DNA from: a virus
Virus record (IMG/VR): IMGVR_UViG_3300017917_003106
Span: 1-51,282 of that record
Strand: one strand, 5' to 3'
DNA length: 51,282 bases
The notes under the pieces were generated by a model. The model had not been told where the DNA came from and ran no database searches. It worked only from the letters and a program-made list of their open reading frames with translations. Below are positions 9,995 through 49,022 of the stretch, in pieces (position 1 is the stretch's first letter; each line of letters starts with the position of its first letter). Both the position numbers and the translations under genes were made by a program.

Positions 9995-9995
9995 T

Positions 9996-11733: not shown

Positions 11734-11735
11734 TT

Positions 11736-16578: not shown

Positions 16579-16582
16579 AGAT

Positions 16583-17779: not shown

Positions 17780-17780
17780 T

Positions 17781-19021: not shown

Positions 19022-19022
19022 A

Positions 19023-19763: not shown

Positions 19764-19773
19764 ACATTAAAGT

Positions 19774-20538: not shown

Positions 20539-21326
20539 AATATACAATATTAGGGTGTATAACAAAATATACAGTTGATGATATTAAACCATATGTTGAA
20601 TCAATAAAACAAAGCGGATTCAATGGAAATAAGGTTATGTTGGTGTACGATGTATCAGAAGAAACCTTAAAATATTTGGATGATAACGGTTGGTTATTAG
20701 TTCAATCAGAATTATATGAACACATTATCTTACAAAGATTTAGAGATATTTACGCACTTTTAGACCAATTAGAAACGGATATAATTATTTGGACAGATGT
20801 TAAGGATTTAGTATTCCAAAACAATCCCATACATTGGATTGAAAAGAATATGAAAAAAGACATTTTGGCACTATCTGAATGTGTAAAGTTTAAGGATGAT
20901 AGTTGGGCAGTTGTAAATGCGGGTTCATCATTTCCGTTAGAATGGGAGTGGTTGCAAGATAAGATATCATATTGTGCAGGAACTATTGTTGGTAAAAAGG
21001 AAGCAATCAGAGACCTATTTATTGATATTTACAGATGGAGTAAAACTACTGCAAATCCACAACAACTTTCAGACCAGGCAGCATACAACGTTCTTATAAA
21101 CCTACATCAATTTAAGAATGTAGTTCAATTTGTAAATCAAGAGGAAGGATTTGCAACTCAATTAGGAACGGTTTTTATAAAAGGAAACGAATTACCTATA
21201 ACAGAACCAACACCAATATACAAAAACGGAAAGTTCTATAATCAAAATGGAAATGAGTTTTGTATAGTTCATCAATACGATAGAAATCCACAGATAAAAG
21301 AAGAAATTAAACAACTATACAAATGA
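20535..21326 (+). CDS. Glycosyltransferase-like protein (GT8/DUF-type)
   Basis: A 263-residue protein with LGCITKYTVDDIKPY at the start, IIIWTDVKDLVFQ (D88 and D91) as the donor and metal motif, then CAGTIVGKKEAI, SDQAAYNVLI and VHQYDR. This order matches a group of bacterial proteins related to GT8-like transferases in which TD.KD.VFQ replaces DxD. It is soluble. Translational coupling to both neighbours (ATGA-type overlaps) indicates a shared pathway. Specificity unknown. Confidence 0.68.
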   Translation: MKYTILGCITKYTVDDIKPYVESIKQSGFNGNKVMLVYDVSEETLKYLDDNGWLLVQSELYEHIILQRFRDIYALLDQLETDIIIWTDVKDLVFQNNPIHWIEKNMKKDILALSECVKFKDDSWAVVNAGSSFPLEWEWLQDKISYCAGTIVGKKEAIRDLFIDIYRWSKTTANPQQLSDQAAYNVLINLHQFKNVVQFVNQEEGFATQLGTVFIKGNELPITEPTPIYKNGKFYNQNGNEFCIVHQYDRNPQIKEEIKQLYK

Positions 21327-22210
21327 AAGGTGTAATTACAATATTTTCAATGCCACAAGAATTGGAAGATTTGGCATTAACATTGGATAAACTAAAAAGA
21401 AACTCTGCATTTATAGATAATTCTGTAAATTATAAAGTAGAAGTTACTATGTGTTTATCGGACCAATTAACCGATTGGGAAAAAACACAATTACCAAAAC
21501 AATACATTAAAGATAGAACAACAGAATTATGCCAAAAATACTTAGATTGGTGTGATTTTTCATTACAATTTGATAACGAAGAAGTATTGGGATGTGTATC
21601 TCAAAGAAGATGGAGTTTGAAAAACAATCAGGACGCAGATTTCTTTATTTGGTTAGATTGTGATATGTTGTTTAAAGATACTACATTATATTACATAACT
21701 TCTGCATATCAAATGGTAAAGGATAGTGGATTGGATATGTTTGTAATAACACCGCAGTTTTTAAAACAATGGGATAATACTTGGGATGTTGTTGCAAACA
21801 AAAAATATTGGAATTATCCTATAAATTACCACTTAACGGCAGATGTTTATAGTGAAGTCTTACCACAATTTGAAGAAGTAAATGTATCAGAGATAAATAC
21901 GTTTAAGTTTGCAGGAGGGTGGTTTACACTTATTTCTAAAGACCTATTAAATAAAGTTGGTGTTCCGGAATCATTTGGACATTATGGATTGGAGGATACA
22001 TTTGTTATGGTATGTTGTATGTATATGAAACAAAGGGGAGAGAATGTATCACAATTTGTTATAGAAAACATAATTGCAAATGAAATACATAAAAATAGAA
22101 CCAATAATACTATAAAAAACTTCATAAGTTCAAAGGATAAGAAAGAGGAGTTTAAGAGAATTGCTGAACAAAATTTTGAAAAAGAAGTTAATAATTTCAA
22201 TAATAAATAA
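21323..22210 (+). CDS. GT2-like glycosyltransferase
   Basis: A 295-residue GT-A enzyme. MKGVITIFSMPQELEDLAL opens the fold, IWLDCDMLF gives a clear DxD (D112-C-D114), and FAGGWFTLISKDLL with HYGLEDTFV forms the acceptor loop and catalytic Asp region seen in processive and non-processive GT2 proteins. It is the last gene of the glycan block. A TATATTTATA motif follows 6 bases after the stop, marking the next transcription unit. Confidence 0.82.
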   Translation: MKGVITIFSMPQELEDLALTLDKLKRNSAFIDNSVNYKVEVTMCLSDQLTDWEKTQLPKQYIKDRTTELCQKYLDWCDFSLQFDNEEVLGCVSQRRWSLKNNQDADFFIWLDCDMLFKDTTLYYITSAYQMVKDSGLDMFVITPQFLKQWDNTWDVVANKKYWNYPINYHLTADVYSEVLPQFEEVNVSEINTFKFAGGWFTLISKDLLNKVGVPESFGHYGLEDTFVMVCCMYMKQRGENVSQFVIENIIANEIHKNRTNNTIKNFISSKDKKEEFKRIAEQNFEKEVNNFNNK

Positions 22211-28021: not shown

Positions 28022-28222
28022 ATGGCGAAAAAAAATACTAAAGAAAATATTAGTAAAACGGAAAAACCTACAAAATACGAATACATATTTAGGAGTGAAG
28101 GATGTGTGTCGATTTGGAAGTATGATACGGATATAACAACATTTGGTCCAATTTCAGTTGAGCACAAATGGGATAACGAATATCTGAAAAACTTAGAACT
28201 TCGACAAAAAAGAGGAAGATAA
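28022..28222 (+). CDS. Small basic hypothetical protein, 66 aa
   Basis: Sixty-six residues from ATG 28022, chosen because the upstream in-frame ATG at 27968 would overlap the Fe-S carrier. The N-terminus is Lys-rich (MAKKNTKENISKTEK), followed by YEYIFRSEGCVSIWKYD and a basic end KNLELRQKRGR. The middle has an FxSEGCVSxWKYD-type strand pattern that I remember vaguely from Bacteroidota phages. It is the last gene before the host-type promoter at 28223. Confidence 0.65.
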   Translation: MAKKNTKENISKTEKPTKYEYIFRSEGCVSIWKYDTDITTFGPISVEHKWDNEYLKNLELRQKRGR

Positions 28223-28254
28223 TTTGTAAAAGTAAAAAACTTTATGTATATTTG
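28223..28254 (+). promoter_or_regulatory. Perfect Bacteroidota-type promoter upstream of the TonB-dependent receptor
   Basis: TTTG at 28223-28226, a 20-base spacer and TATATTTG at 28247-28254 match the TTTG-N20-TAnnTTTG consensus exactly. The predicted start is near 28261, about 130 bases before the receptor ATG, giving an unusually long leader for this genome. Confidence 0.82.
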
Positions 28255-28270
28255 TGAACAACAAAGTAGG

Positions 28271-28363
28271 ATGAGTACGAAAAACTTAAACAATAACAAA
28301 CAAGCAACAAACCCGAAAGGTGTGGTATCCCCACACCTTTTTTTATTTTTAACAATCAATTAA
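28271..28363 (+). CDS. Possible 30-codon leader peptide
   Basis: ATG 28271 to TAA 28361-28363, lying just downstream of the predicted transcription start and running through the terminator-like hairpin at 28316-28344. The product would be rich in Asn, Lys and Leu (NLNNNKQATNPK at codons 5-16). If translated, ribosome position could decide whether the hairpin forms. It could equally be chance. Confidence 0.25.
   Translation: MSTKNLNNNKQATNPKGVVSPHLFLFLTIN
28316..28344 (+). terminator. Terminator-like hairpin in the receptor leader (possible attenuator)
   Basis: AAAGGTGTGG (28316-28325), loop TATCC, CCACACCTTT (28331-28340), then a U-tract to 28344. The ten-base-pair stem plus T-run is a good intrinsic terminator. 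It lies between the promoter at 28223-28254 and the receptor start at 28392. A terminated RNA would be about 84 nt long. Confidence 0.7.
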
Positions 28364-28391: not shown

Positions 28392-31300
28392 ATGAAAAAA
28401 GTAATTTTACTATTTCTAATGATTATGACGAGCTACATCAGTTTCGGTCAAATCACAACATCAACAATCTCCGGATTTGTAAAAGACCAGAAAGGTGAAA
28501 CCATTCCAGGAGCAACAATCCATGCGGTGCATGAGCCAACTGGTACAAACTACTATTCTGTTACAAACAAAAATGGGGTATTCGTATTACCCGCAGTTAG
28601 AGTTGGTGGTCCTTACACAGTTCACGCTACATTTGTTGGATTTAACAAAGGTGAGTTAAAGAATGTAGCAGCTCAATTGGGTAACACTACAAACTTAACA
28701 ATGGTTTTAATTGAAAATACAGTTGCATTAAATGAGGTGGTAGTAACTGCTCCAAATAATGATGTATTTTCAAAAGACAAAACCGGAGCATCTCAACAAT
28801 TTGGAAGAAGAGAATTAACTACCATTCCAATTACAGGTGCAAGAACAATCAATGGTATTACTAAATACAATGCCTTTGGTGATGGTTCTTCATTCGGAGC
28901 ACAAGATTCTCGTTTGAACAACTTCACAATTGATGGTTCTCAATTCAACAACAACTTCGGTTTAGGTTCTTCGGCACAAGCGGGTGGTAGAACCGGAGCA
29001 TCGGCAATCTCTTTAGATGCGATTGAGCAACTTCAGGTTAATATTGCACCTTTTGATATTCGTCAGAGTGGGTTTACTGGCGCAGGTATCAATGCAGTGA
29101 CACGAAGTGGTACAAACGAAATTGAAGGAAGTGTTTATCAAACACAAAGAGATAATAGTTCTCGTTATGTTGGTGATAATGCAAGAGGAACAACCGTAAC
29201 TGCATCTAAATTCGATGAGAAGGTACAAGGTTTCCGTTTGGGTGCACCAATTATTAAAAACAAATTATTTATCTTTGGTAACTATGAGAATATAGAAAGA
29301 ACAGAGCCAGGTACAACTTGGATTTCAACCGGTTCTCCTTTAACAGGTTCTCAAATTAGTAGACCTACTTTCCAACAATTAACTGACCTTTCTAACTTTA
29401 TGAGAGAGAAGTTTGGTTATGAAACAGGTCCATTTGAGGGATATTCTAACACAAACGTTTCAGAAAAATTCTTAATTAGAACGGATTGGAACATTAACGA
29501 TAAACACAAATTAACTGCTCGTTATGTTCATCACGATTCTGAAGCACAAATTGGTATTTCAAACTCACAATCGGCAGGTTTTGGTAATAGAACTCAAAAC
29601 ATCAATGCAATGAGTTTCCAAAATAGTGGTTATACTATTCAAGATAATACTCGTTCAGGAGTATTGGAATTAAACTCTAAATTCTCAAATACTTTACATA
29701 ACAACTTAATTGTTTCCTATGATAAACAAATTGAGAACAGAGGTTACTTATCTCAAATGTTCCCAACTATTGATATTAAAGAAGGTGCAACCACTTTAAC
29801 ATCAGTAGGTTTTGACCCATTCACTCCAGGAAACAAATTAGATTATTGGACTTTCAACATAACAAACAACGTTACAAAGTATTTTGAAAAACATACTTTA
29901 GTTGGTGGTTTTAACTTCCAAAAATATCAATCTAATAACTTATTCTTTCCTGCATCTAATGGTGTTTACATTTTCAATAGTTTAGCAGATTTCTATACTG
30001 CAGCAAATCAATCATTAGCAAACGGTGGTGCACCATCAACATTTGCACCTGCTCGTTTCCAATTCCGTTATTCGGCATTACCTGGAGCAGTTGAACCGAT
30101 GCAAACTTTAGAGTCTACCAGATTAGATTTATATTTGCAAGATGAGTACAATGCAACCGAAAATCTCAAATTATCATTCGGTATTAGAACCAACGTTATT
30201 GGATTTGAGGATACGGCATTAGAAAATCCGGCAGTATCAAATATGTTTTGGTTAAACGGACAACGATTAAATACTGGAACAATGCCTAAAACTCAAGTTC
30301 TTTTTGAACCGAGATTTGGTTTTAACTATAACTTAAAAGGTGAAAGTAAAACACAATTTAGAGGTGGTACAGGTGTATTCACAGGTAGACCTCCGTATGT
30401 GTTCTTATCTAACCAAATTGGTAACAATGGTGTATTGACAGGATTTATTGATGTGAGTGGTGCAGCGGCAGCTAATTATGGTTTCACCGCAGACCCTAAC
30501 AAATATTTCATTCCATCAACACCAACTTTACCAACTACATTTGATTTGGCATTAACAGACCCTAACTACAAATTTCCACAAGTTTGGAAAACAAATTTGG
30601 CAGTTGACCAACAATTACCTTGGTTAGGTTTGATAGCAAGTGCGGAATATTTGTATAATAGAACCTTAAATGCAGTTCATTACTATGAGGCAAACTTACA
30701 AAATCCAATTGGAACATTGGGTGGTGTAGATAACAGACCTCGTTTTGGTGGAACCGATGCAACTGTTAGAATTAACAACAACGTATCAAGAGCAGCAGTT
30801 CTTACTAACAGAAACGGAGCATTCCACGAATCATTAACCTTAAAATTAGAATTACCTTACAGAAAAGGTTTATGGGGTTCATTTGCATGGACAACTGCAA
30901 ACTCAAAAGACTTTATGAGTGCAGGTTCAATCGCAAGTGGTTCATGGCAATCTGCTTTATCTGTTGCAGGAAACAATCAATTAGATTTATCAATTGCTGA
31001 TGCATTTGTTAAAAATCGTTTTGTAGGTTTATTAGGTTATAAATTTGAATATGGAAATAAAGTTGGAACTGCAACAACCGTTACTTTAGGTTATGTGGGA
31101 CAACAATCAAATCCATTCTCTTATATTGTAGCAGGTGACTTAAACGGTGATAGAGTAAACAACAATGATTTGTTATTTGTTCCACTAAAAGGTTCAGATA
31201 TTAAATTTGCACCATTAACAGTTGGTACACGAGTTTATACTGAAGCAGAACAACAGGCTGCATTTGACGCATTTATTGAGCAAGATGATTACTTAAAGAC

Positions 31301-31670
31301 TCGTAGAGGTCAATACGCTGAAAGAAACGGTGGGTTGTTACCTTACTTACACAGATTAGACCTTTCAGTAGCACAAGATTTCTTTGTAAAAATTGGAGGA
31401 AAGAAAAACTCATTCCAAGTAAGAGCAGATATTCTTAACTTTACAAATATGTTGAATAAAGATTGGGGAGTTTCTCAAAGAGCAACCGCACCTCAATTAT
31501 TGAACTTTGTAAGTAGAGATGCTGTTACAAACGTTCCAACATATAGATTAGCTACTCAAAGATTAGTAGATGGTTCTACAATCTTAGCAAGAGATACTTA
31601 TCAATTCAACTCATCAGTATTTGATGTATGGAGTGCACAATTAGGTATTCGTTATACATTTGGTAGATAA
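28392..31670 (+). CDS. Oar-like TonB-dependent outer-membrane receptor
   Basis: A full-length 1092-residue receptor. Signal peptide ends before Q20 (SFGQ). Residues 22-110 form a carboxypeptidase-regulatory-like domain (SGFVKDQKGETIPGATI). LNEVVVTA at 113-120 resembles the TonB-box region. The plug includes FTIDGSQFNN near 180 and INAVTRSGTNEIEGSVY near 233, and a long barrel follows with alternating strands and the end LGIRYTFGR. Oar-type receptors import large or unknown substrates in Bacteroidota. No frameshift is seen and codon use resembles its phage neighbours. It has a perfect host promoter and its own terminator. Possible roles are nutrient uptake, receptor replacement or superinfection control; all are inference. 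Confidence 0.93.
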   Translation: MKKVILLFLMIMTSYISFGQITTSTISGFVKDQKGETIPGATIHAVHEPTGTNYYSVTNKNGVFVLPAVRVGGPYTVHATFVGFNKGELKNVAAQLGNTTNLTMVLIENTVALNEVVVTAPNNDVFSKDKTGASQQFGRRELTTIPITGARTINGITKYNAFGDGSSFGAQDSRLNNFTIDGSQFNNNFGLGSSAQAGGRTGASAISLDAIEQLQVNIAPFDIRQSGFTGAGINAVTRSGTNEIEGSVYQTQRDNSSRYVGDNARGTTVTASKFDEKVQGFRLGAPIIKNKLFIFGNYENIERTEPGTTWISTGSPLTGSQISRPTFQQLTDLSNFMREKFGYETGPFEGYSNTNVSEKFLIRTDWNINDKHKLTARYVHHDSEAQIGISNSQSAGFGNRTQNINAMSFQNSGYTIQDNTRSGVLELNSKFSNTLHNNLIVSYDKQIENRGYLSQMFPTIDIKEGATTLTSVGFDPFTPGNKLDYWTFNITNNVTKYFEKHTLVGGFNFQKYQSNNLFFPASNGVYIFNSLADFYTAANQSLANGGAPSTFAPARFQFRYSALPGAVEPMQTLESTRLDLYLQDEYNATENLKLSFGIRTNVIGFEDTALENPAVSNMFWLNGQRLNTGTMPKTQVLFEPRFGFNYNLKGESKTQFRGGTGVFTGRPPYVFLSNQIGNNGVLTGFIDVSGAAAANYGFTADPNKYFIPSTPTLPTTFDLALTDPNYKFPQVWKTNLAVDQQLPWLGLIASAEYLYNRTLNAVHYYEANLQNPIGTLGGVDNRPRFGGTDATVRINNNVSRAAVLTNRNGAFHESLTLKLELPYRKGLWGSFAWTTANSKDFMSAGSIASGSWQSALSVAGNNQLDLSIADAFVKNRFVGLLGYKFEYGNKVGTATTVTLGYVGQQSNPFSYIVAGDLNGDRVNNNDLLFVPLKGSDIKFAPLTVGTRVYTEAEQQAAFDAFIEQDDYLKTRRGQYAERNGGLLPYLHRLDLSVAQDFFVKIGGKKNSFQVRADILNFTNMLNKDWGVSQRATAPQLLNFVSRDAVTNVPTYRLATQRLVDGSTILARDTYQFNSSVFDVWSAQLGIRYTFGR

Positions 31671-31691: not shown

Positions 31692-31721
31692 ATGGGGGAA
31701 AGTAAAATTTCTCCCATTTTT
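31692..31721 (+). terminator. Intrinsic terminator after the TonB-dependent receptor gene
   Basis: ATGGGGGAAA (31692-31701), loop GTAAAA, TTTCTCCCAT (31708-31717) with one G-U pair, followed by a T-run. It isolates the receptor transcript from groEL. Confidence 0.85.
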
Positions 31722-31722
31722 G

Positions 31723-31754
31723 TTTGGTAATATGGAAAACTTTTCGTATATTTG
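31723..31754 (+). promoter_or_regulatory. Perfect Bacteroidota-type promoter upstream of groEL
   Basis: TTTG at 31723-31726, 20-base spacer, TATATTTG at 31747-31754. The predicted start is around 31761 and the groEL ATG is at 31789. Host RNA polymerase should recognise it early in infection. Confidence 0.82.
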
Positions 31755-31785
31755 TTCAAACGAAAATAAACAAACACAAAAATAG

Positions 31786-37597: not shown

Positions 37598-37789
37598 ATG
37601 AAACCATTTAAAAGAAGTTATACGGACAAAAAAGTTTCAGGAATATGTAGTGGGTTAGGTAGATATACAAAAACAGACCCTATACTTTGGAGATTAATAT
37701 TTGTTGGATTATTATTAACACCATTTCCAATTACATTAATTTACATTATTACCTCATTAATAACAGATGAAATAGAATACACAGATTGA
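37598..37789 (+). CDS. PspC-domain membrane protein
   Basis: A 63-residue protein with the PspC domain: RSYTDKKVSGICSGLGRY, then DPILWRLIFVGLLL and a second hydrophobic stretch ITLIYIITSLI. PspC proteins sense or counter membrane stress. It is two bases after the endolysin, so it should be made at lysis time. It could stabilise the inner membrane until lysis or take part in holin timing; both are inference. A strong terminator follows immediately. Confidence 0.88.
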   Translation: MKPFKRSYTDKKVSGICSGLGRYTKTDPILWRLIFVGLLLTPFPITLIYIITSLITDEIEYTD

Positions 37790-37790
37790 A

Positions 37791-37814
37791 GGGAGAAAAA
37801 ATTCTCCCTTTTTT
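37791..37814 (+). terminator. Intrinsic terminator after the lysis genes
   Basis: GGGAGAA (37791-37797), loop AAAA, TTCTCCC (37802-37808), then six Ts. It directly precedes a host-type promoter. Confidence 0.85.
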
Positions 37815-37815
37815 A

Positions 37816-37847
37816 TTTGGATTTGTAACAAATTTTTTGTATATTTG
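37816..37847 (+). promoter_or_regulatory. Perfect Bacteroidota-type promoter
   Basis: TTTG at 37816-37819, 20-base spacer, TATATTTG at 37840-37847, followed 20 bases later by the ATG at 37868. It should drive the 37868-39646 unit ending with thymidylate synthase, which fits early expression. Confidence 0.8.
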
Positions 37848-37867
37848 TTATAATACTAAAATAAATT

Positions 37868-39684: not shown

Positions 39685-39694
39685 TATACTTATA
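39685..39694 (+). promoter_or_regulatory. Recurrent motif TATACTTATA (candidate phage promoter) before the exported-protein block
   Basis: TATACTTATAGT starts 29 bases before the ATG at 39714. Exactly the same 12-mer occurs before the CsgG-like gene (46294) and the secreted nuclease (48408), and at the last site the sequence after it is also alike (GAGAAA). Confidence 0.6.
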
Positions 39695-39713
39695 GTAGAG
39701 AAAATAACAGTTT

Positions 39714-40367
39714 ATGAAAGCAACAATCAATTACATCAGTTTAGGTATTAAAGAGATATTGGCAAGAGCATTGGCATTTGTAATAATCTCTTGGTTCGTA
39801 TTTGCCCTATTTGTGGCATTTTCCGGTTTATTCCTACAAATAATCGGTAGAGATGACATTAACGGTATAGTAAATCAATGGTATTTAACCAAATTTGACT
39901 ACTATTACAAATCACATCCAAACAACATTCTATACGATGAAGAAAAAAACATCTATGTAGAAAGTGTAACCAATCAGGTTAAAATTGGTAAATTAGCCGG
40001 AAACCGTAATTTGGAATTTGGTGTTAAAAATATATTAGAAGAATTTTTGCAGGAGGAAGGATATGACATCTATCCAAATGCACCATATAGATTACAAGTA
40101 CAAATTGTTTATTTAGATGTTCTTACTACAAAGAAAAACATATCAGTTTTTCATAAGAACGAAGAAGAGGTAGTTATCCGTTTGAAAGGAATTCTTACAA
40201 AGGATGGCAAAAAAGTTAAAGAGGTTATCGTAGAAGAATCATCATCCGAAATCTCTATTTCTACTCTAATAGTTGATGAGGGTGGCAAGTTCAACCAAAC
40301 TTCATTGTCAAATGCATTGAAGAAAGGCTGTGGGTCACTTATCACAAAACTATTTGAGAAGAAATAA
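39714..40367 (+). CDS. Membrane-anchored protein with periplasmic domain, 217 aa
   Basis: Residues 16-46 hold one long hydrophobic segment (ALAFVIISWFVFALFVAFSG), leaving about 165 residues probably on the periplasmic side. That domain has alternating helices and strands (NILEEFLQEEGYDIYPNAPY, LQVQIVYLDVL, EVVIRLKGIL), a rhythm that recalls periplasmic lipoproteins of the YajG or CsgG-partner kind, though no family is certain. It is the first gene after a phage-type promoter motif and abuts the secreted-protein genes, so it may assist their export. Confidence 0.7.
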   Translation: MKATINYISLGIKEILARALAFVIISWFVFALFVAFSGLFLQIIGRDDINGIVNQWYLTKFDYYYKSHPNNILYDEEKNIYVESVTNQVKIGKLAGNRNLEFGVKNILEEFLQEEGYDIYPNAPYRLQVQIVYLDVLTTKKNISVFHKNEEEVVIRLKGILTKDGKKVKEVIVEESSSEISISTLIVDEGGKFNQTSLSNALKKGCGSLITKLFEKK

Positions 40368-41999
40368 ATGAAGAAATTATTATTATTTGTGGGATTTTTA
40401 TTTATATCCCTTTCATCTAATGCCCAACTTACTATTGCTCAATCAATAACACCTACAACTGGATTAAAAGTTGGAGATACTGTAACTGTTAAATACACTT
40501 TAACAAAAGGACAAGCGGTAGTTAATCCTCGTTATTTTTGGTTTAGATACCAATATAACAACAAAGCATTAACTTATGTTTCAACTACTTTCAATCAAGG
40601 TTCGGCAACACAAACATTTTATACGGGTTGGAATAACTACAAATTCAACTTTAATGGTGGAGCAAGTGACAACGACTTAAATGTTCAGTATGGTTTAACA
40701 CCTTGGAACTACACAGTAAATCCTGATTGGAATGTTGGACAATTAACGGTACAGAGAACAGATGCAGCAATTGATGGATTAATTGCAACTCAAAAATACA
40801 TTCTAAAAGACCAAAATACATACAATAACATTTTTAAGATAGACTTGGCAACTGGTACAAATATTGATGGTTCTAATGTTGGAACTATTTATGGTGGTGG
40901 TTGGTCATCTTTATCAAATGTTAGTGGTAACACATCTCAATTTAAAGTAAGAGTTCTATTCCCACAAGGATATCCAATTGGAGACCATAATATTCAACTA
41001 ATGAACTTAAAAACAGATGGCAGTGGTGATATAGATTGGTCAAAACCACCAATTGTACAAAAGGCATTAGATTCGAGTGGAGAAACCATATTCACATCCG
41101 GAGTTAAAGTTGGTGATTCGGTTGGTGTATTCATATCACCTGCTTCTCAAAAAGCATGGATGAATAACATAGTAACTGTAACTGATGCATACAAAGCATT
41201 CTTAGGGCATACTCAAACTGATATTACAGGTAATCCTACATTCTTTACACTTCCAAACTTAGAAAAGAAAATTGGAAACGTAACTAAAAATGATGCCACA
41301 TTTAATGAAAGTGATTCATACTATATATTTGCACATATAATGGGTATGGATGTATCGGCAAATGCAATATTACCAACATCAACTGCTACATCTTGGAGAT
41401 GGTATAGTGGATTATTAAATCAAAGTTGGTTAGATGGTAATCAAAGATATAAAGTTAATATTACACAACCATCTCAAACAGTGGATGCAGTATTTGCATG
41501 GGGTGCCGATTTAGATTGGTCACATTCATCTTCACCAACTGAAATTGCAAGTAGAATAAGTAGTGGTAACTATTTAAACTCTATAAACGCAATTGCATCA
41601 GTTGGTACATTATCTTACACTCCTGCGGAGTTGGAAAAAGCAACATTGAGTTTAACATCTAAATTGGAGAACGGTAAAGTAGTATTATCAACCACATTAA
41701 CAAAAGCAGATTTAGCGGGTATAGAATTGATATTACAATACGATAATACAAAATTAACTTTAGACAATGTGATATTTGATGCAGGAAATACTGTTACTAA
41801 TTTTTCAACAATCAAAGATAACAGAATAACGTTTGGTTCAATTGACCAAACAAAAACTGCAAGAGTAAAGGTAGGAACTCCATACAAATTGATTTTCACT
41901 CCAAAGGTGGAATTGGCAAATACTGCGGGATTGTTCTATTTTGTATTAGCAGATGCGGTTAATGGAATTGGTAATAAGATTGATTTAACGGTAGAATAA
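40368..41999 (+). CDS. Secreted modular protein with dockerin-like and cohesin-like regions
   Basis: A 543-residue exported protein with a Sec signal ending before Q20 (SSNAQ). The middle contains a degenerate dockerin-like segment (VTVTDAYKAFLG, then NDATFNESDSYYIF), in which not all calcium ligands are kept. The C-terminal 110 residues form a cohesin-like beta domain (LENGKVVLSTTL, ELILQYDNTKLTLDNVIF). The same order occurs in the next gene, including the linker motif D-x-WSHS/NLSHS, so the two are paralogues. It starts directly at the stop of the membrane-anchored protein gene. A surface scaffold or adhesin is the best guess. Confidence 0.75.
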   Translation: MKKLLLFVGFLFISLSSNAQLTIAQSITPTTGLKVGDTVTVKYTLTKGQAVVNPRYFWFRYQYNNKALTYVSTTFNQGSATQTFYTGWNNYKFNFNGGASDNDLNVQYGLTPWNYTVNPDWNVGQLTVQRTDAAIDGLIATQKYILKDQNTYNNIFKIDLATGTNIDGSNVGTIYGGGWSSLSNVSGNTSQFKVRVLFPQGYPIGDHNIQLMNLKTDGSGDIDWSKPPIVQKALDSSGETIFTSGVKVGDSVGVFISPASQKAWMNNIVTVTDAYKAFLGHTQTDITGNPTFFTLPNLEKKIGNVTKNDATFNESDSYYIFAHIMGMDVSANAILPTSTATSWRWYSGLLNQSWLDGNQRYKVNITQPSQTVDAVFAWGADLDWSHSSSPTEIASRISSGNYLNSINAIASVGTLSYTPAELEKATLSLTSKLENGKVVLSTTLTKADLAGIELILQYDNTKLTLDNVIFDAGNTVTNFSTIKDNRITFGSIDQTKTARVKVGTPYKLIFTPKVELANTAGLFYFVLADAVNGIGNKIDLTVE

Positions 42000-44296
42000 T
42001 GAAAAAAATAATTGTTATATTTTTAGTATTATTATATTCAACTTTTGGGTTCGGACAGAGTGTATCTGCTCCGGACTCTAAATCTTTTCTGTTAAGTACA
42101 AACGGACAAGATGCGAGTGGGTTTGTATTGAATGGATTTAATTCAACAGCAACTTTACTAACATCAATTAGTTTAGTTAATCCACCTTCAGGTACAACAT
42201 TTAATTTAGGAACAACAACTGGTCTAACTGCGGCAAGTGGATTTACTTTGAGTGGTAATAAAACCCGTTTGGTATTTACAGGTACAATGGCAAACATCAA
42301 TACGGCATTGGCATCTCTAAAAGTAAATACGGGTTCAATAAAAGGAAATATTGTATTATCGGTAGCGGCAACTGTAAATCCAACAGGTTACTTCTATAAT
42401 GGAACAAATGGACACTTTTATAGACCAATATCACAAGGAACAACTTATACTGGTGCAAGAGCAGCAGCATTAAATACTACATTCAAAGGACAGCAAGGGT
42501 ATTTGGTAACAATCACTTCTGCAGATGAAGATTTATTTATTTTTAATAATGTACCACAAGGTAATATATGGTTTGCATTAACCGATGAAGTGACTGAAGG
42601 ACAATGGAGAATTGACGCAGGACCAGAAGCAGGAACCTTAATCAAAACATCTAATGGACAAACTGCCGGAAATATAGTTGGACAATATAACAACTGGGCA
42701 GGTGGTGAACCAAATAATAGTGGTAACGAAGATTATGCAGTAACTAAATGGAGTGGTGGGTCTCAATGGAATGATTTGCCCAACGGATTTAATTGTGCAT
42801 ATGTAATTGAATATGGAACTTGGACTAATCCGGATGATGCAACATTTACAGAATTTTATACCAATTCAGTAGTACACTCAAACGGTGAAGTATTAACAGC
42901 AAGATTTAATTTTAATTTTGGTGGTAATGTAGATGAAACAAGATTTTCAGCAAGAGCAAACACTTATGTAAATAACAATTGGAATATAACAAATAATATA
43001 TCGAGAGGATTGAGTGGATTGGGTAAAGTTGATATTACAAACGATTTAGATACCAACAAAGTAAGTAATGGATACAAAGCATCTGTAACTGAAGGACAAG
43101 TAGAATGGTCAATTATAAATCCATATGAAAGCAACTTGGGTGGTCATAGATTACAAATTGATGAAAGAGAGTTTTATGGATTGGGTATAAACCTAAATGA
43201 TATAAAATCAATAAAACTATTTGATATTTACGAAGGACCTATTCAACCTTTAGATTTTGGTGGTTGGTGGAAACAATGGACAATACCTGGAAATATTGAT
43301 ATTACTAATAAAGTGGCATCAAGTTCTTATCAAAATTATTTTAGATTGCAGGATGGTTGGTATGGGATTAGAGCAGAATATACATTTACACCTAACCTGT
43401 CATTTAAGCAACATGGAATTGAATTGGTTGCAAATTCACAAACTGATTTAAACAATTTATACAATAGTATTGTAACTGTTTCGGATGTATTTTTAGCATT
43501 TAAAGAATTATCAAATGGTGGATTATTTGGAAATGAAAGTGGATTAGAGTTTACAAACGGTATTCAATATATGAACGCAGATGTGGATGGGAATGGTGTA
43601 TTTAATGAAGCAGATACTTACAAACTTTTACAACATCTAACTGGAGTACAACCACTTAGACAATATTCTGCATTGACATACTTAATGAAATTGTACAGTA
43701 AAACCGAATATGATGCAATTACAAAATCTAATTGGAATACAGAATTTAATTCAACAAGAAGTTTATATCCATTTAGTTTGAATACCGGAACATTAAACAA
43801 TACTTACAACATAAATGTAACTTGGGTAGGGGATGTAAACTTATCTCATTCTGCACAACAATCATCTAATGTTGTTGCAAACACTTCAATGAGAACAATG
43901 AGTTTGGGAACAACATCGGTTTCAAATGATATAAATGCATCTTTGATGAGTGAATTGGTAAACGATAAAGTTGTAATTACAATATCATTAGACCCATTAC
44001 AACAACAAGTAGTTGGAACTCAATTCCAATTAAATTATGATAATACCAATTTGAAGTTTGAAAAAGTAGATTTTATCACAAAAGGAAATCCAATGAATTA
44101 CGGAACCGACAGAGGTACATTTGTAAACATAGGTTCATTAATAACAGATAATTCATCGGTATTAGATAATACAACAGAATACAGAGTAACATTTAGTTCT
44201 ATAACAAAACTTACAGATATATTGGGATTGGTATCAATATCAACAACCGATGGTGTAAACAAAGAAGGAAAACAATTAAAGATTAAAATAAACTAA
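41999..44296 (+). CDS. Secreted C-type lectin protein with dockerin and cohesin-like regions
   Basis: A 765-residue exported protein with a Sec signal ending before Q20 (FGFGQ). Residues 135-275 form a C-type lectin-like domain: GYLVTITSADED, IWFALTDEVTEGQW, GGEPNN with EPN at 237-239 and WNDLP at 257-261, the calcium and mannose-type sugar-binding signatures. A dockerin-type calcium loop, DVDGNGVFNEAD, occupies 528-539 with ligands D528, D530, N532 and D539. The C-terminal 110 residues are cohesin-like (QFQLNYDNTNLKFEKVDF). It overlaps both neighbours by a base. It should bind sugars on a cell or virion surface and possibly its paralogue. Confidence 0.82.
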   Translation: MKKIIVIFLVLLYSTFGFGQSVSAPDSKSFLLSTNGQDASGFVLNGFNSTATLLTSISLVNPPSGTTFNLGTTTGLTAASGFTLSGNKTRLVFTGTMANINTALASLKVNTGSIKGNIVLSVAATVNPTGYFYNGTNGHFYRPISQGTTYTGARAAALNTTFKGQQGYLVTITSADEDLFIFNNVPQGNIWFALTDEVTEGQWRIDAGPEAGTLIKTSNGQTAGNIVGQYNNWAGGEPNNSGNEDYAVTKWSGGSQWNDLPNGFNCAYVIEYGTWTNPDDATFTEFYTNSVVHSNGEVLTARFNFNFGGNVDETRFSARANTYVNNNWNITNNISRGLSGLGKVDITNDLDTNKVSNGYKASVTEGQVEWSIINPYESNLGGHRLQIDEREFYGLGINLNDIKSIKLFDIYEGPIQPLDFGGWWKQWTIPGNIDITNKVASSSYQNYFRLQDGWYGIRAEYTFTPNLSFKQHGIELVANSQTDLNNLYNSIVTVSDVFLAFKELSNGGLFGNESGLEFTNGIQYMNADVDGNGVFNEADTYKLLQHLTGVQPLRQYSALTYLMKLYSKTEYDAITKSNWNTEFNSTRSLYPFSLNTGTLNNTYNINVTWVGDVNLSHSAQQSSNVVANTSMRTMSLGTTSVSNDINASLMSELVNDKVVITISLDPLQQQVVGTQFQLNYDNTNLKFEKVDFITKGNPMNYGTDRGTFVNIGSLITDNSSVLDNTTEYRVTFSSITKLTDILGLVSISTTDGVNKEGKQLKIKIN

Positions 44297-44640
44297 TGAA
44301 AAAATTACTATTCATATTAACTATATTGATAATTGGATGCCGAAAAGAGGATTTACCACCACCAACCGTATCTCAAAAAAGTGATATATTTAGTGTAACT
44401 GAAAGTAGGATTACAAACGGACAATCTATACATTTTAATTTACCATCAGCGGGATTATACACTTTAACCTTAATTGATAAACAAACAAATCAGGTTTTAA
44501 GTAGAGAAAGATTTAATGGGGTAAGCGGTGAAAATATAAAGAAGATTTATACGAAAACCATACAATCTCAATATTTATATTTGTTATTGGAAGATGTTAC
44601 TAAAAAAGAAATAGGAAAAACAACAGTAATAATCAAATAA
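44296..44640 (+). CDS. Small lipoprotein with beta-sandwich domain
   Basis: A 114-residue lipoprotein. The lipobox is LIIGC with C15. The rest looks like one compact beta domain: LYTLTLIDKQTNQVLSRERF and YLYLLLEDVTKKEIGKTTVI. The strand pattern (G-Y/L-x-L-x-L-x-D, then a turn and final I-I-K) resembles the type IX secretion C-terminal domain fold, but the similarity is weak. Start overlaps the lectin gene's stop. Likely anchored in the periplasmic or outer-membrane leaflet. Confidence 0.72.
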   Translation: MKKLLFILTILIIGCRKEDLPPPTVSQKSDIFSVTESRITNGQSIHFNLPSAGLYTLTLIDKQTNQVLSRERFNGVSGENIKKIYTKTIQSQYLYLLLEDVTKKEIGKTTVIIK

Positions 44641-44645
44641 ACAAA

Positions 44646-45020
44646 ATGAAAAACATACTTATATTAACACTTTTAATAGCAACTTTAGTAGCATGTAGAA
44701 AAGATAACACTATTAAAGTAGGACAAAAAGTTCCAATTACAAATGATTTAAGAATGATAGCGTTGAAAGGTATTAAATTACAAACACCTTTCGTAACGAA
44801 TGAAGTATTGATGAATGTAAAATTGGAAACAAATGATGTTGTAACCATTAAAATAATTGATATAGCTAATAGAGTTGTATCAAAAGAAGAGGTAAATGCA
44901 ACAGCAGGAGATAATCTATTTAAAGTTTATACAACTGCACTACCATCTTCAGCATACAGAATTGCATTATATGGTTCAAATGGAGTTATGATTGGAATAA
45001 CAGATTTTAATAAATTATAA
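44646..45020 (+). CDS. Small lipoprotein resembling the previous one
   Basis: A 124-residue lipoprotein with lipobox TLVAC (C17). The mature domain has VTIKIIDIANRVVSKEEV, then AGDNLFKVYTTALPSSAYRIALYGSNG, which follows the Por-secretion-tail (type IX C-terminal domain) pattern more clearly than its neighbour. It and the preceding lipoprotein probably arose from a common ancestor. An anchor or partner for the secreted dockerin/cohesin proteins is plausible but inferred from position only. Confidence 0.72.
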   Translation: MKNILILTLLIATLVACRKDNTIKVGQKVPITNDLRMIALKGIKLQTPFVTNEVLMNVKLETNDVVTIKIIDIANRVVSKEEVNATAGDNLFKVYTTALPSSAYRIALYGSNGVMIGITDFNKL

Positions 45021-45038
45021 ACAATAAAAAAAACGATT

Positions 45039-45353
45039 ATGTCAGAAGAAGTAGAAAATGATGGAACTTGGGGTGGTTTAAAGAAAACCATCGTAGGTAC
45101 AGTAGCAACAGTAGTAACCGCAGGTGGTGCATGGTTAGGTTCAACATTATTTGGTGGAGGTGAAGAAGCAGCTCCTGCAGCAGCGGCACCAGTAATTAAC
45201 ATTACTAACTCAAACACTCAACAACAATCACAAGGTGGTGGTACTACTAAGGTAATTGAAAGAGTAAAAGAGATTCCTGCTAAAGAAAAAGCAGCACCTG
45301 CTCCTAAGAAAAAAGAAGGTGATGAATTCAAAGAAACTCCACCAGCTTGGTAA
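45039..45353 (+). CDS. Small membrane protein with Ala/Pro- and Lys-rich tail
   Basis: A 104-residue protein. One hydrophobic, glycine- and alanine-rich segment lies at about 17-38 (TIVGTVATVVTAGGAWLGST), then GGGEEAAPAAAAP, a Gln/Asn-rich stretch and a Lys-rich end. Such small single-pass proteins occur beside phage lysis genes. It begins a group of three membrane proteins up to 46256. A holin or holin partner is possible, but the endolysin is 8 kb away. Confidence 0.62.
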   Translation: MSEEVENDGTWGGLKKTIVGTVATVVTAGGAWLGSTLFGGGEEAAPAAAAPVINITNSNTQQQSQGGGTTKVIERVKEIPAKEKAAPAPKKKEGDEFKETPPAW

Positions 45354-45363
45354 AAAATAGATT

Positions 45364-45963
45364 ATGAAAGAACAAACAGGATTTAGAGAGTTACTAAACT
45401 CAATGATGAAACGTAGATGGTATATCACTGCGTTGGTATTGGGTGGATTTATGTTAATTATGGGTGGTATGTTTGCTGCTATATTTAACAAGTCCGAAAT
45501 AGCAGGAGAATGGAAAGAACTTCTATTATTGTTATTAGGAGCTTTTATCGGTTCTTATGGTAAAATCATTGACTATTGGTTTAGTGATACTGATAAGGAT
45601 AAGATGTTAGTACAAAAGATGGATGAGGAAGATGGTACATCGTTAAGTAATACTGCTGATATACCAGATACACCAATCGTTCCAACAAATGTATTACCTT
45701 TTGGATTACCAACTAATGAAACTAAAGTAGAGGATAAAGTAGTTAGTAACGAAACTCCTAAAACAGATTTTAAACCAGTTGAGATAGATGAAGATGGAGA
45801 CGGAGTAATGGATGGTTTAGATACTGATGGTGATGGAGATATAGATGAATACTTTGAACACAGACAATGTGAGCATATTTGGGGAGATAGTGATAACGAT
45901 GGGGATGAAGAATGCTTGAAATGTGGAAAGATAAAAGATGAATCTGCCGAAGAGGTAGGATAA
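45364..45963 (+). CDS. Two-pass membrane protein with acidic calcium-like repeats and a zinc site
   Basis: A 199-residue protein. Two hydrophobic segments are at about 20-42 (ITALVLGGFMLIMGGMFAAI) and 52-72 (ELLLLLLGAFIGSYG). The soluble tail has a Pro-rich linker, then DEDGDGVMDGLDTDGDGDID, which looks like tandem calcium-binding loops. The end has CEHIW ... CLKCG, a possible zinc site that frames a further DSDNDGDE loop. The combination is unusual. The membrane part could be holin-like, and the acidic tail could sense calcium. It is between two other small membrane proteins. Confidence 0.65.
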   Translation: MKEQTGFRELLNSMMKRRWYITALVLGGFMLIMGGMFAAIFNKSEIAGEWKELLLLLLGAFIGSYGKIIDYWFSDTDKDKMLVQKMDEEDGTSLSNTADIPDTPIVPTNVLPFGLPTNETKVEDKVVSNETPKTDFKPVEIDEDGDGVMDGLDTDGDGDIDEYFEHRQCEHIWGDSDNDGDEECLKCGKIKDESAEEVG

Positions 45964-46007
45964 TTGTTACTTGGTTACATAGTTTAATCACTTAAAAAAT
46001 AGAAACT

Positions 46008-46256
46008 ATGGCATTTAAGGACATGTTTAAAGACAACAACGACATCAATGAAAAATCAGTAATTGGTTTTGCAGCATTCGTAGTAATGGTGTTAGCGATG
46101 GTAGTTGATTTAGTAACTGGATATCTTGGAAAAGATTTAGTTATCAATGAGTTTATTTACAATTCATTCTTAGTGATTTGTTTAGGAGCATTAGGTATTG
46201 GTTCAATAGACAAATTTGTAAATAAGAAAAACTCAAACGATGAGGAAGAAGGATAA
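46008..46256 (+). CDS. Small two-helix membrane protein (holin-like)
   Basis: An 82-residue protein with two hydrophobic segments, about 20-42 (IGFAAFVVMVLAMVVDLVTG) and 50-70 (IYNSFLVICLGALGIGSI), and a charged C-terminal tail (NKKNSNDEEEG). Length and topology fit a class II holin. A terminator follows directly. Without functional evidence, holin remains a likely but unproven call, and the two preceding membrane genes are alternatives. Confidence 0.62.
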   Translation: MAFKDMFKDNNDINEKSVIGFAAFVVMVLAMVVDLVTGYLGKDLVINEFIYNSFLVICLGALGIGSIDKFVNKKNSNDEEEG

Positions 46257-46266
46257 ATAAGGAAAG

Positions 46267-46293
46267 GGGAGAAGTAATATTCTCCCTTTTTTT
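46267..46293 (+). terminator. Intrinsic terminator after the holin-like gene
   Basis: GGGAGAA (46267-46273), loop GTAATA, TTCTCCC (46280-46286), followed by a run of Ts that runs into the promoter motif at 46294. Confidence 0.85.
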
Positions 46294-46303
46294 TATACTT
46301 ATA
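46294..46303 (+). promoter_or_regulatory. Recurrent motif TATACTTATA before the CsgG-like gene
   Basis: TATACTTATAGT starts only 13 bases before the ATG at 46307. A transcript started about 7 bases after the motif would begin at the start codon, so the message may be leaderless. Confidence 0.58.
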
Positions 46304-46306
46304 GTT

Positions 46307-47029
46307 ATGAGAAAAATTATATTATTGGTTGCATTTATCATCGGGATGGTAACAACCACATTTGCACAAACTGTTGGTAAAACACAAACAGAACAATACA
46401 AAGCATCATTCGAAACAGCAATTGATATTTCCCAATTCTTAGATTATGAGGGAAAGCAAATTCCTATTCAAATTTTAAAAGCAGGTATTTCAGACGAAAT
46501 GTATGAGATGTATCCTGAATTAAAAGAAAAAAGAGTAGGTTTAGGTGTTGCTAACATCACAATGGAATATTTAGAAAACCTCAATCGTTTCAAATTTACC
46601 GAAGATAAAACCGAAATTAAAAACCGTATGGTTAAACAATTTCAAGCATCTCAAGCAGGAATTTCTGAAAACAAATTAGATGGTAGAGGAAAGATTAACT
46701 TAGCAGAATATTTTGTTACAGTAGAATGTTACGATTATTCGGTATCAGAAGATGAAACTGTAAATCTAAAAGATGGTGTTAAAAATTTAATGGTAACCCG
46801 TATAGGTTTGCAAGTTCGTTTTACTAATGCAGAAACCGGAGTAGTATTCGGAGCAAGTGGATTGGGAGAAGCAAAAACAACGAGAGAATTAACTCTATTA
46901 TCAGATGCAACAGTAGACCCGGTTAAGTTCAACCAATCAACTATTTCAATTGCGACAAAGAAAGCATTGGATATTGCATGTGCAAGGATATTAGATAGGA
47001 TGGTTAAAAAAGGTATATTTGAGAAATAA
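46307..47029 (+). CDS. CsgG-like exported protein (curli-type secretion pore candidate)
   Basis: A 240-residue protein with a Sec signal ending before Q21 (TTFAQ). The mature part follows the CsgG pattern: VGLGVANITMEYLENLNRF with a helix, AEYFVTVECYDYSV, RIGLQVRFTNAETGVVFGAS and a C-terminal ATKKALDIACARILDRM helix. CsgG forms a nonameric outer-membrane pore for curli subunits. The usual lipobox Cys is absent, since the signal is followed by Gln, so membrane insertion would differ from E. coli CsgG. CsgG-like genes have been reported, to my memory, in marine phages. No CsgA or CsgF homologue is apparent nearby. Confidence 0.68.
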   Translation: MRKIILLVAFIIGMVTTTFAQTVGKTQTEQYKASFETAIDISQFLDYEGKQIPIQILKAGISDEMYEMYPELKEKRVGLGVANITMEYLENLNRFKFTEDKTEIKNRMVKQFQASQAGISENKLDGRGKINLAEYFVTVECYDYSVSEDETVNLKDGVKNLMVTRIGLQVRFTNAETGVVFGASGLGEAKTTRELTLLSDATVDPVKFNQSTISIATKKALDIACARILDRMVKKGIFEK

Positions 47030-47031
47030 AA

Positions 47032-48405
47032 TTGAATAAATGGGTAAAACTTCTTATCATATCGGTTATACTCTTAATAGCATCAAATGTTGCTAAAGGA
47101 CAAACTTATACCCAAACTTTTACAGATAAATGTACCGGTGAAATAAAAGTAGCAACCACCACATATATTAACGGAAACGCATTTGTTTCTTTCTACAATC
47201 AGACCAAAATGTTTACCCCTGCCGAAGTTGCAAGTGGAGCAATGCAGGCATGGTTATTACAAGTAAAAGCATCTTATGAGGCATTAACTTGTCCAGTAGT
47301 AAATAATCCAGTAGTAACACAAACAGTAACCCAGGCAGTAACACAGGCGGCAAGTTCAGCGGCATCATCAGCCGCTTCATCTGCAGCAAGTTCTGCGGCA
47401 AGTGCTGCTGCAAACAAAGCCGCATCAACACCACCACCAACTTCCACACCACCACCTGCATCATCAAATACTTCTTCATCCAACACATCATCTGGCAGTG
47501 GTTCATCTTCATCTGGTAGTAGTTCATCTTCATCATCGGAAAGTAAAACGGAAACTAAAACCGAAAGTTCTACCGAAAGTAAGAGTGAAACCAAATCAGA
47601 AGAAACTAAAACAGAAGAAAGTAAATCTGAAAGTAAAAGTGAAGAAAAAAAAGAGGAAAGTAAATCCGAAGAAAAGAAAGAAGAAAGTAAGGAGGAGAAA
47701 AAGGAAGAAAAGAAAGAAGATAAAAAAGAAAAGAAAAAATCGGCATCGGTAAACCCAATGTTAATATCATCCGATTTGAGTACAGTTCAATCACCAGATG
47801 GTAAATTTACCCCAATACTTTCATTCGGTGTATCTAAATCCTCTATGGCAGGTGATGAGAGTTTCTCTGCAAACACTATGATATGGGGAGATTTGAAACA
47901 ATTTGCTTTAAGTGGTGGATATACCAAAATGGATTTTAGTGGTGGCAAACTCAATGCAATTCACTCATATTCGGTAACTGCAGCATACTTAGATGGTAAT
48001 TGGATGGGATTGACTGGTTATACAAACATTAAACCACATCCAAAGTATGGAACATACGGATACAATGTTGGTGTAATATACTTACTACTAAAAAACCCAA
48101 CCACAAATAAGTTTGATTTGAATATATCATCATCGGTTGTAGCATTTTGGACAAAACCATATCAATATAATAAGAAATTGGCAATATCACCACAGATATT
48201 CCTAATGAATTCACCTATTGGATTTAATTCGGTAACAGGAAACACTGTTGTAAGTAGAGATATTGGATTTATTGTAGGTTCAACATTTGATTATAAAATT
48301 AGTAAAAGATTTGGTTTTAGTGTAAATTACAAAGCAATAGGTTCAACACAGAATGGAAGTAAAATCTTAAATAACTTCTTAATTGGTTCACGTTTATTGT
48401 TATAA
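47032..48405 (+). CDS. Outer-membrane beta-barrel protein with long low-complexity linker
   Basis: A 457-residue exported protein. The only start that keeps the signal peptide is TTG 47032; the signal ends before Q24 (AKGQ). Residues 25-95 are a small domain (TFTDKCTGEIKVATTTY). From about 107 a linker of Ala/Ser repeats, Pro, Ser and then Glu/Lys/Ser runs to about 240. The last 215 residues alternate like barrel strands (SFGVSKSS, MIWGDLKQFALSGGYTKM, RFGFSVNYKAIG) and end NFLIGSRLLL. It follows the CsgG-like gene by two bases. The linker could cross the periplasm and peptidoglycan. A second export or anchoring pore is the leading guess. Confidence 0.72.
   Translation: MNKWVKLLIISVILLIASNVAKGQTYTQTFTDKCTGEIKVATTTYINGNAFVSFYNQTKMFTPAEVASGAMQAWLLQVKASYEALTCPVVNNPVVTQTVTQAVTQAASSAASSAASSAASSAASAAANKAASTPPPTSTPPPASSNTSSSNTSSGSGSSSSGSSSSSSSESKTETKTESSTESKSETKSEETKTEESKSESKSEEKKEESKSEEKKEESKEEKKEEKKEDKKEKKKSASVNPMLISSDLSTVQSPDGKFTPILSFGVSKSSMAGDESFSANTMIWGDLKQFALSGGYTKMDFSGGKLNAIHSYSVTAAYLDGNWMGLTGYTNIKPHPKYGTYGYNVGVIYLLLKNPTTNKFDLNISSSVVAFWTKPYQYNKKLAISPQIFLMNSPIGFNSVTGNTVVSRDIGFIVGSTFDYKISKRFGFSVNYKAIGSTQNGSKILNNFLIGSRLLL
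47351..47745 (+). repeat. Low-complexity coding repeat (Ala-Ser, Pro, Ser, then Ser-Glu-Lys)
   Basis: Within the barrel gene, short triplet-type repeats encode tandem AASS units, then PPP/TS, a poly-Ser part, and finally KSEEKKEE-type units. The DNA is purine-rich in the second half. The repeat length may vary among related phages by slippage. Confidence 0.8.
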
Positions 48406-48407
48406 TT

Positions 48408-48417
48408 TATACTTATA
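48408..48417 (+). promoter_or_regulatory. Recurrent motif TATACTTATA before the secreted nuclease gene
   Basis: TATACTTATAGTGGAGAAA starts 27 bases before the ATG at 48435 and closely copies the site at 39685, including GAGAAA after the motif. Confidence 0.58.
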
Positions 48418-48434
48418 GTGGAGAAACACACATT

Positions 48435-49022
48435 ATGAGAAAATTATTTTTAGTTATTGCAATTGCGTTATTTGGAATATCGGCAAAGGCACAGAATGTA
48501 AACATTAAAACACCAATATTTGAGGTGTTATATTCACAACAATTAGAACAACCACTTTGGTTAATCTACAAATCCACAAACAGACCTACAAATGTAAATA
48601 GAGGTACAATGGACTTCTATACAGAAAAAGGAGTTAAAACATCCGATGGTGCAGATTATGCGGGAAACATCTATGATAAAGGGCATTTGGCACCTGCGGC
48701 AACGTTTTCGGACAATATGGAAAATCTAAAACAAACCTTTTCATATCTGAATTGTGCATTGCAGGACCAATATATGAATAGAGGTGAGTGGAGATTGTTA
48801 GAGGAACAAGAAAGAAAATGGGATGACGTAGAAGATTTAACTATTAAAGTTGAATTATTATTTGGACCAAACTCAAAGAAATTACCAACCAATGCAACAG
48901 TTCCAACTGCAATGGTAAAACACATCTATTTTGAAAAACAAAAGAAATGGAGATGTTTTGATTTTCCAAACATAAAACCTACTAAGAAGTGGGAAGAGCA
49001 CGAAGTTAAACACATTCACTAA
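48435..49022 (+). CDS. Secreted DNA/RNA non-specific endonuclease (NUC1 family)
   Basis: A 195-residue exported nuclease with a Sec signal ending before Q20 (AKAQ). The beta-beta-alpha-metal active site reads YDKGHLAPA, with catalytic H84 and Lys in place of the usual Arg of DRGH, followed by LNCALQDQYMNRGEW with N115 as the magnesium ligand. The fold core thus seems intact. Acting outside the cytoplasm, it could degrade periplasmic or extracellular DNA, for example incoming DNA of other phages or DNA released at lysis. It is preceded by a phage-type promoter motif. Confidence 0.87.
   Translation: MRKLFLVIAIALFGISAKAQNVNIKTPIFEVLYSQQLEQPLWLIYKSTNRPTNVNRGTMDFYTEKGVKTSDGADYAGNIYDKGHLAPAATFSDNMENLKQTFSYLNCALQDQYMNRGEWRLLEEQERKWDDVEDLTIKVELLFGPNSKKLPTNATVPTAMVKHIYFEKQKKWRCFDFPNIKPTKKWEEHEVKHIH

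Follow-up and report, generated by a model that had tools for sequence, protein, structure and literature searches.

Curli operons encoding a type VIII secretion system (T8SS) have been described in pelagiphages and methylophages, and a role at the cell surface or in aggregation has been proposed for them but is unproven (PMC7029224, PMC9599517, PMC9004378). In FapF, the amyloid exporter of Pseudomonas, the N-terminal part is helical, and a disordered linker could reach across the periplasm (PMC5557850). We analysed a virus fragment of 51,282 bases from IMG/VR (referred to below as the window), in which a block of 11 genes (39714–49022) is arranged head to tail on the plus strand, 3' of the thymidylate synthase gene. 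Most products of this block are exported, and every reading frame named in the original prediction was open at its given position on the plus strand. Apart from the thymidylate synthase, the window encodes what we take to be a phage-type DNA polymerase, a clamp loader, a dUTPase, a glycosyltransferase block, GroEL and a GH19 endolysin, most of these being assigned from the sequence. We propose, with moderate confidence, that the block is a conserved envelope module of large Bacteroidota phages that displays lectin and cohesin adhesins on the infected cell. The features of the block are listed in Table 1.

Table 1. Features of the envelope gene block and its putative promoters (positions in the window).
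Feature	Position	Strand	Evidence or remark
12-mer TATACTTATAGT, putative phage promoter, unit 1	39685..39696	+	3 exact copies in window
YajG/Lipoprotein_16-like protein, N-terminal TM anchor, periplasmic	39714..40367	+	Pfam PF03923, E 1.5e-5
Secreted modular protein: N-terminal cohesin, dockerin-like, second cohesin-like	40368..41999	+	Signal peptide; Pfam Cohesin 3e-4
Secreted C-type lectin, EPN + WND motifs, dockerin-like region, cohesin-like C-terminus	41999..44296	+	Pfam Lectin_C 5e-4
Small lipoprotein 1, beta-sandwich-like	44296..44640	+	Lipobox IIGC; identity 43–70% in relatives
Small lipoprotein 2, weakly T9SS-sorting-tail-like (DUF3244-like)	44646..45020	+	Lipobox LVAC; DUF3244 4e-4
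sm1: short conserved core protein, one putative TM segment, Pro/Ala-rich, conserved C-terminus	45039..45353	+	5' of CsgG-like gene in 93/104 loci
sm2: two TM segments, DxDGDG repeats, Cys-rich C-terminus	45364..45963	+	Conserved, 53–76%
sm3: two TM segments, holin candidate	46008..46256	+	Adjoins GH19 endolysin in 18/75 copies
Intrinsic terminator between units 1 and 2	46266..46293	+	
12-mer TATACTTATAGT, putative promoter, unit 2	46294..46305	+	Exact copy
CsgG-fold protein, periplasmic/outer-membrane-associated; family essentially phage-only	46307..47029	+	Fold and profile comparison, genome scans
Outer-membrane protein: N-terminal domain + helix, long charged linker, 12-strand barrel (FapF/NanC-like); TTG start	47032..48405	+	AF2, Foldseek
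12-mer TATACTTATAGT, putative promoter, unit 3	48408..48419	+	Exact copy
Secreted DNA/RNA non-specific endonuclease	48435..49022	+	Pfam PF01223, 1.3e-22; immuto gp12 43% identical

The 12-mer occurs in three exact copies in the window, compared to 0.01 expected from shuffled sequences, and each copy is located just 5' of a start codon. The second copy lies directly 3' of the intrinsic terminator, and because of this arrangement the block reads as three transcription units, which would comprise the genes from the YajG-like gene to sm3, the CsgG-like and barrel genes, and the nuclease gene onwards. Thus, the predicted sharing of one motif by three units was borne out within the window. However, the motif is not confined to the block: among relatives a shortened form is thinly spread, occurring 5' of only 10 of 160 CsgG-like genes and of 49 other genes. 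As it is not conserved in relatives, the 12-mer was rejected as a general marker of the module; its distribution fits a phage promoter element better than a module signature. Elsewhere in the window, repeats with TATATTTG-like sequence (31701–31756, 37794–37849 and 28221–28272) are located near the GroEL gene and the genes at 37868 and 28392; they resemble a Bacteroidetes host promoter and are unlike the 12-mer of the block.

The distribution of the block among viruses was determined by scanning IMG/VR with the CsgG-like protein, where 481 stretches encode close relatives (those retained being 85–97% identical). A second scan using gp17 of the isolated phage Immutovirus immuto as the query added relatives of that protein, and the genes of 161 loci, on contigs of up to 326 kb, were clustered. 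Cohesin/lectin genes occur 5' of the CsgG-like gene in 104 of the 104 loci with enough flanking sequence, and sm1 does so in 93 of them; a barrel gene follows within five genes 3' in 145 of 149 loci and is immediately next in 93, although these counts are not independent, as many contigs are near-identical. The CsgG-like sequences include 111 distinct ones, and in the clade of the window this protein has a median identity of 89%, compared to 58–68% for its neighbours. Immuto, which infects Flavobacterium sp. LMO8 from the Baltic Sea, carries the module as gp12–gp19 in a row, in the order nuclease (gp12), C-type lectin (gp13), gp14, cohesin protein (gp15), sm1 (gp16; 41% identical to the window protein), CsgG-like protein (gp17; 49% identical), barrel (gp18) and YajG-like protein (gp19). 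No other isolated phage was found to encode relatives of the CsgG-like protein, sm2, the lectin or the T9SS-tailed protein. The hosts are apparently Bacteroidota, as inferred beyond immuto from sorting tails of the type IX secretion system (T9SS) and gene content. The original prediction had made conservation of the set in related phages a test of its own, and the synteny across about 160 loci and in immuto supports the block as a unit.

Only two matches to the CsgG-like protein were obtained from 84,980 genomes of bacteria and archaea, both on phage-like contigs, which indicates that the family is essentially viral; a bacterial origin was rejected on the same grounds. Both contigs contain the block together with a phage-type GH19 endolysin. 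They were assigned to two bacterial MAGs (contigs of 12.6 kb and 254 kb belonging to this phage group) and are probably misbinned or derived from infected cells.

Signal peptides or lipoboxes are evident on seven products (genes at 40368, 41999, 44296, 44646, 46307, 47032 and 48435) and transmembrane segments on four (39714, 45039, 45364 and 46008). In related loci, our own crude predictor assigned export to 93–99% of the secreted, lipo8 lipoprotein, CsgG-like, immuto-type barrel and nuclease families and to 68–77% of the lipo15 lipoprotein, YajG-like and window-type barrel families, compared to 7% of the other neighbouring genes. Hence, the products are exported as had been suggested. Virions can carry C-type lectin and Ig-like domains, and the modular proteins might accordingly decorate the particle or mediate its adhesion; however, virions are assembled in the cytoplasm, and proteins with cleavable signal peptides, lipoboxes or T9SS tails are directed elsewhere. 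We rejected this reading on the export signals and regard it as extremely improbable. The domains present (cohesin, dockerin-like, C-type lectin, T9SS tail and lipoprotein) likewise favour a location at the cell surface over one in the virion.

The similarity of the protein encoded at 46307 to CsgG was reached only by fold and profile–profile comparison. Neither the window protein nor its immuto counterpart matches Pfam CsgG (PF03783), and the window copy passed no Pfam cut-off; PF03783 was also missing from the two genomes that contain homologs, and a sequence-profile search of the PDB with the family gave no match. In contrast, comparison of the family by hhalign with an alignment made of the E. 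coli CsgG sequence plus four matches from Bacteroidia yielded E 5e-9 over 204 columns. The AlphaFold2 model is of moderate quality (pLDDT 76, pTM 0.70; shallow alignment), and its top Foldseek matches are CsgG structures (E 3e-7, prob 1.00, TM 0.4–0.5), followed by GNA1162, FlgT, PelC and LptE among others. The YajG-like protein is homologous to the same family (hhalign E 8e-10); PF03923 is matched in 11 of 30 of its relatives. We concluded from the model and the profiles that the protein at 46307 has the CsgG fold.

Such a fold raises the possibility of a phage curli-like (type VIII) system in which the modular proteins would leave through an outer-membrane pore made of the CsgG-like protein itself. 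The phage operons cited above set a precedent for this arrangement, about a quarter of the homologs are predicted lipoproteins like CsgG, and among viral models the best match is to one annotated as a phage CsgG (E 2e-6). However, the regions corresponding to the pore hairpins are shorter and more charged than those of E. coli CsgG, with 24 residues and 29% charged compared to 28 and 14% for the first, and 27 residues and 26% charged compared to 36 and 19% for the second. The model contains one long hairpin with an acidic tip and lacks the second. In addition, CsgF, CsgE or curlin were not recognised among the Pfam, NCBIfam and PHROGs matches of the block proteins scanned, and a separate barrel gene is nearly always present 3'. 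Because of the short and charged hairpin regions, a pore formed by the CsgG-like protein alone appears doubtful, and a type VIII system is decidedly unlikely. The proposed pore candidate is thus retained with respect to its fold but lacks clear pore hairpins, and the model suggests a periplasmic collar rather than a pore.

Since the CsgG-like protein is without clear pore hairpins, the barrel protein is the likelier exporter or exit, although its resemblance to known exporters is weak and limited to the modelled fold. The AF2 model starts with an N-terminal domain and a long helix; a charged, disordered linker leads from these to a 12-strand barrel, most of which has a block-mean pLDDT of about 81–91. 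The best Foldseek matches in the PDB are the porin NanC (1.2e-4) and many FapF chains (from 2.3e-4), and the FapF-type architecture of 12-strand barrel, N-terminal helical region and disordered linker is present in the model. NCBIfam matches to GltJ and similar families were rejected as noise from the low-complexity linker. Structure prediction, which had been suggested as a check, therefore yielded a CsgG fold for one candidate exporter and a 12-strand FapF-like barrel for the other.

The modular proteins are more readily classified in relatives than in the window. Among 29 representative secreted proteins, Pfam identified Cohesin in 12, Lectin_C in 10, the T9SS sorting domain in eight, GEVED in three and Dockerin_1 in two, and LamG, PA14 and Ig_7 in one each. 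The best relatives score 1.4e-12 for Cohesin and 1e-15 for Lectin_C, whereas the window's own copies are weak, that for Cohesin being below the cut-off. Dockerin-like loops (DVNGDxxxxxSDxY) are clear by eye, and profiles match EF-hand proteins as well as dockerins. Consequently, of the two predicted dockerin/cohesin-like proteins the cohesin assignment is strong in relatives, while the dockerin part remains weak. EPN and WND are motifs of sugar- and calcium-binding lectins. They occur together in 83 of the 83 proteins having either, and with the Lectin_C matches this agrees with sugar-binding C-type lectins, for which a C-type lectin domain with EPN/QPD and WND is characteristic.

NCBIfam TIGR04183 agrees with the T9SS sorting domain in seven of the representatives. 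Gp15 of immuto ends in a type A sorting tail (TIGR04183, E 9e-12; range with relatives included, 9e-12 to 4e-12), and by this sequence signal the cohesin proteins of the immuto clade are addressed to the host T9SS. The domain is absent from the cohesin/lectin proteins of the window. The tail is present in 74 of 75 loci with an immuto-type barrel and a lipoprotein in none of them, while 48 loci with a window-type barrel encode a lipoprotein without a tail and two a tail without a lipoprotein; this exclusivity rests on a few lineages. The family of lipoprotein 2 is weakly similar to the phage T9SS tails (hhalign E 1.8e-5, prob 78). Sorting tail and small lipoprotein look like two ways to hold the same proteins at the surface. 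Where T9SS addressing applies, in the immuto clade, a phage exporter is not needed for the tailed modular proteins. Of the two exporters expected for the modular proteins, the CsgG-like protein and the barrel, the barrel is the better candidate. We found no papers on phage proteins with T9SS signals or on phage cohesin–dockerin systems in the literature searched.

Three small membrane proteins had been counted in the block, and all contain transmembrane segments; however, sm3 is holin-like and may belong to lysis. Together with the GH19 endolysin encoded 5' of the block at 36756, sm3 probably constitutes a neighbouring lysis cassette. A 63-residue PspC-domain-like protein (37598–37789) also adjoins the endolysin gene. 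The repeats of sm2 (DEDGDGVMDGLDxDGDG) are followed by a conserved Cys-rich end, and this tail is lost in some relatives (two loci); sm2 has no relative in isolated phages. None of the ten block proteins compared with PHROGs yielded a match. It is conceivable that the whole block serves lysis or disruption of the outer membrane, the lipoproteins and small membrane proteins acting as holin and spanin-like parts. The upstream endolysin gene, and its adjacency to sm3 in 18 of 75 copies, would fit this function, yet it leaves the lectin, cohesin, T9SS tail and CsgG-like parts unexplained and many modules have no sm3, which makes it highly improbable.

The secreted non-specific nuclease is compatible with superinfection exclusion, in which coat, barrel and nuclease would mask receptors and destroy the injected DNA of competitors in the periplasm. 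Nearly all parts are exported, and one member of the YajG-like family weakly resembles TraT (E 0.0016). However, that match is a single weak one among 30, the nuclease gene is missing from many loci, and a sugar-binding lectin would be unnecessary; we consider an exclusion device unlikely. Lectin, LamG and PA14 domains and the nuclease could alternatively gather glycans and DNA as nutrients, together with the outer-membrane receptor-like protein at 28392. The latter had been counted with the exported set, but it lies outside the conserved block and has no relatives in the fetched loci, and the block is devoid of glycoside hydrolases, so that nutrient capture is very unlikely. The receptor-like protein itself (28392–31670; 1092 residues, CarboxypepD_reg and OMP_b-brl_4) was matched by a single entry among 50,697 phage records, a fecal sequence of 6.1 kb without annotation. 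A long run of apparent glycosyltransferases with a nucleotidyl-sugar gene and an aminotransferase-like gene (8615–22210) suggests phage-encoded glycan synthesis.

Because the block is exported, phage-specific, conserved and lectin-bearing, it most likely decorates the infected cell. In the adhesin display that we favour, the module would be expressed during infection and every part exported by Sec. The barrel, with its periplasmic domain and long linker, would be an outer-membrane component serving as the exit or as a platform for assembly, and the CsgG-fold protein, aided by its YajG-like paralogue, would form a periplasmic collar at it. The modular proteins would join via cohesin–dockerin contacts and be held at the surface by the host T9SS through the sorting tail on the cohesin protein in the immuto clade, and by the small lipoproteins in the clade of the window. 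The lectin would bind glycans with Ca2+, and the nuclease would degrade DNA outside the cytoplasm. Most plausibly, the resulting coat would cause infected cells to stick to neighbours or glycans, or would mask receptors against competing phages. What the analysis establishes is the gene content, its conservation, the domains, the predicted folds and the T9SS signal; collar, export route, cohesin–dockerin pairing and benefit to the phage are what we infer. A more specific version is possible but tentative: CsgG-fold collar and FapF-like barrel may form a phage-specific outer-membrane secretion system that, together with the host T9SS, builds a cohesin–dockerin lectin coat on infected Bacteroidota, hijacking the T9SS in some lineages; the TM protein sm1 might connect this secretion system with the inner membrane. 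The literature searched contained no report of a viral surface organelle of this kind.

Exported products, which can have no function within the cell, take up a large share of the coding effort of these phages, and the module has been retained across hundreds of phage fragments from the environment as well as in an isolate whose host can be cultured. The module provides examples of phage proteins directed to the host T9SS and, next to the pelagiphage curli, a second type of envelope module in phages, and the question of why phages encode genes for surface secretion becomes testable in Flavobacterium.

With regard to known systems, gp15 of immuto and its relatives end in a tail like host T9SS cargo with the type A sorting domain (TIGR04183, PF18962), but they are phage-encoded, and the window has lipoproteins in place of the tail. 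Like cellulosome assemblies, the module has secreted proteins directed to the surface that contain cohesin domains and dockerin-like Ca-binding loops, whereas scaffoldin arrays and glycoside hydrolases are absent and a lectin is the putative partner. The barrel protein resembles FapF (PDB 5o65, 5o67, 5o68; E 2e-4) in its 12-strand barrel, N-terminal periplasmic helical part and long disordered linker; however, the N-terminal domain differs, no sequence match was seen, FapB/C/D/E-like genes were not recognised, and the E value is level with that of NanC. The pelagiphage and methylophage operons contain recognisable CsgG and CsgF, and in some cases curlin repeats, none of which, like PF03783 and CsgE, was recognised in the block. 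Unlike these operons, the block combines a separate 12-strand barrel with cohesin/lectin proteins and T9SS tails or lipoproteins, in apparent Bacteroidota hosts. Both are phage-borne outer-membrane secretion modules with a CsgG-fold protein, and by this analogy the pelagiphage curli modules appear to be the nearest precedent, with an equally uncertain benefit to the phage.
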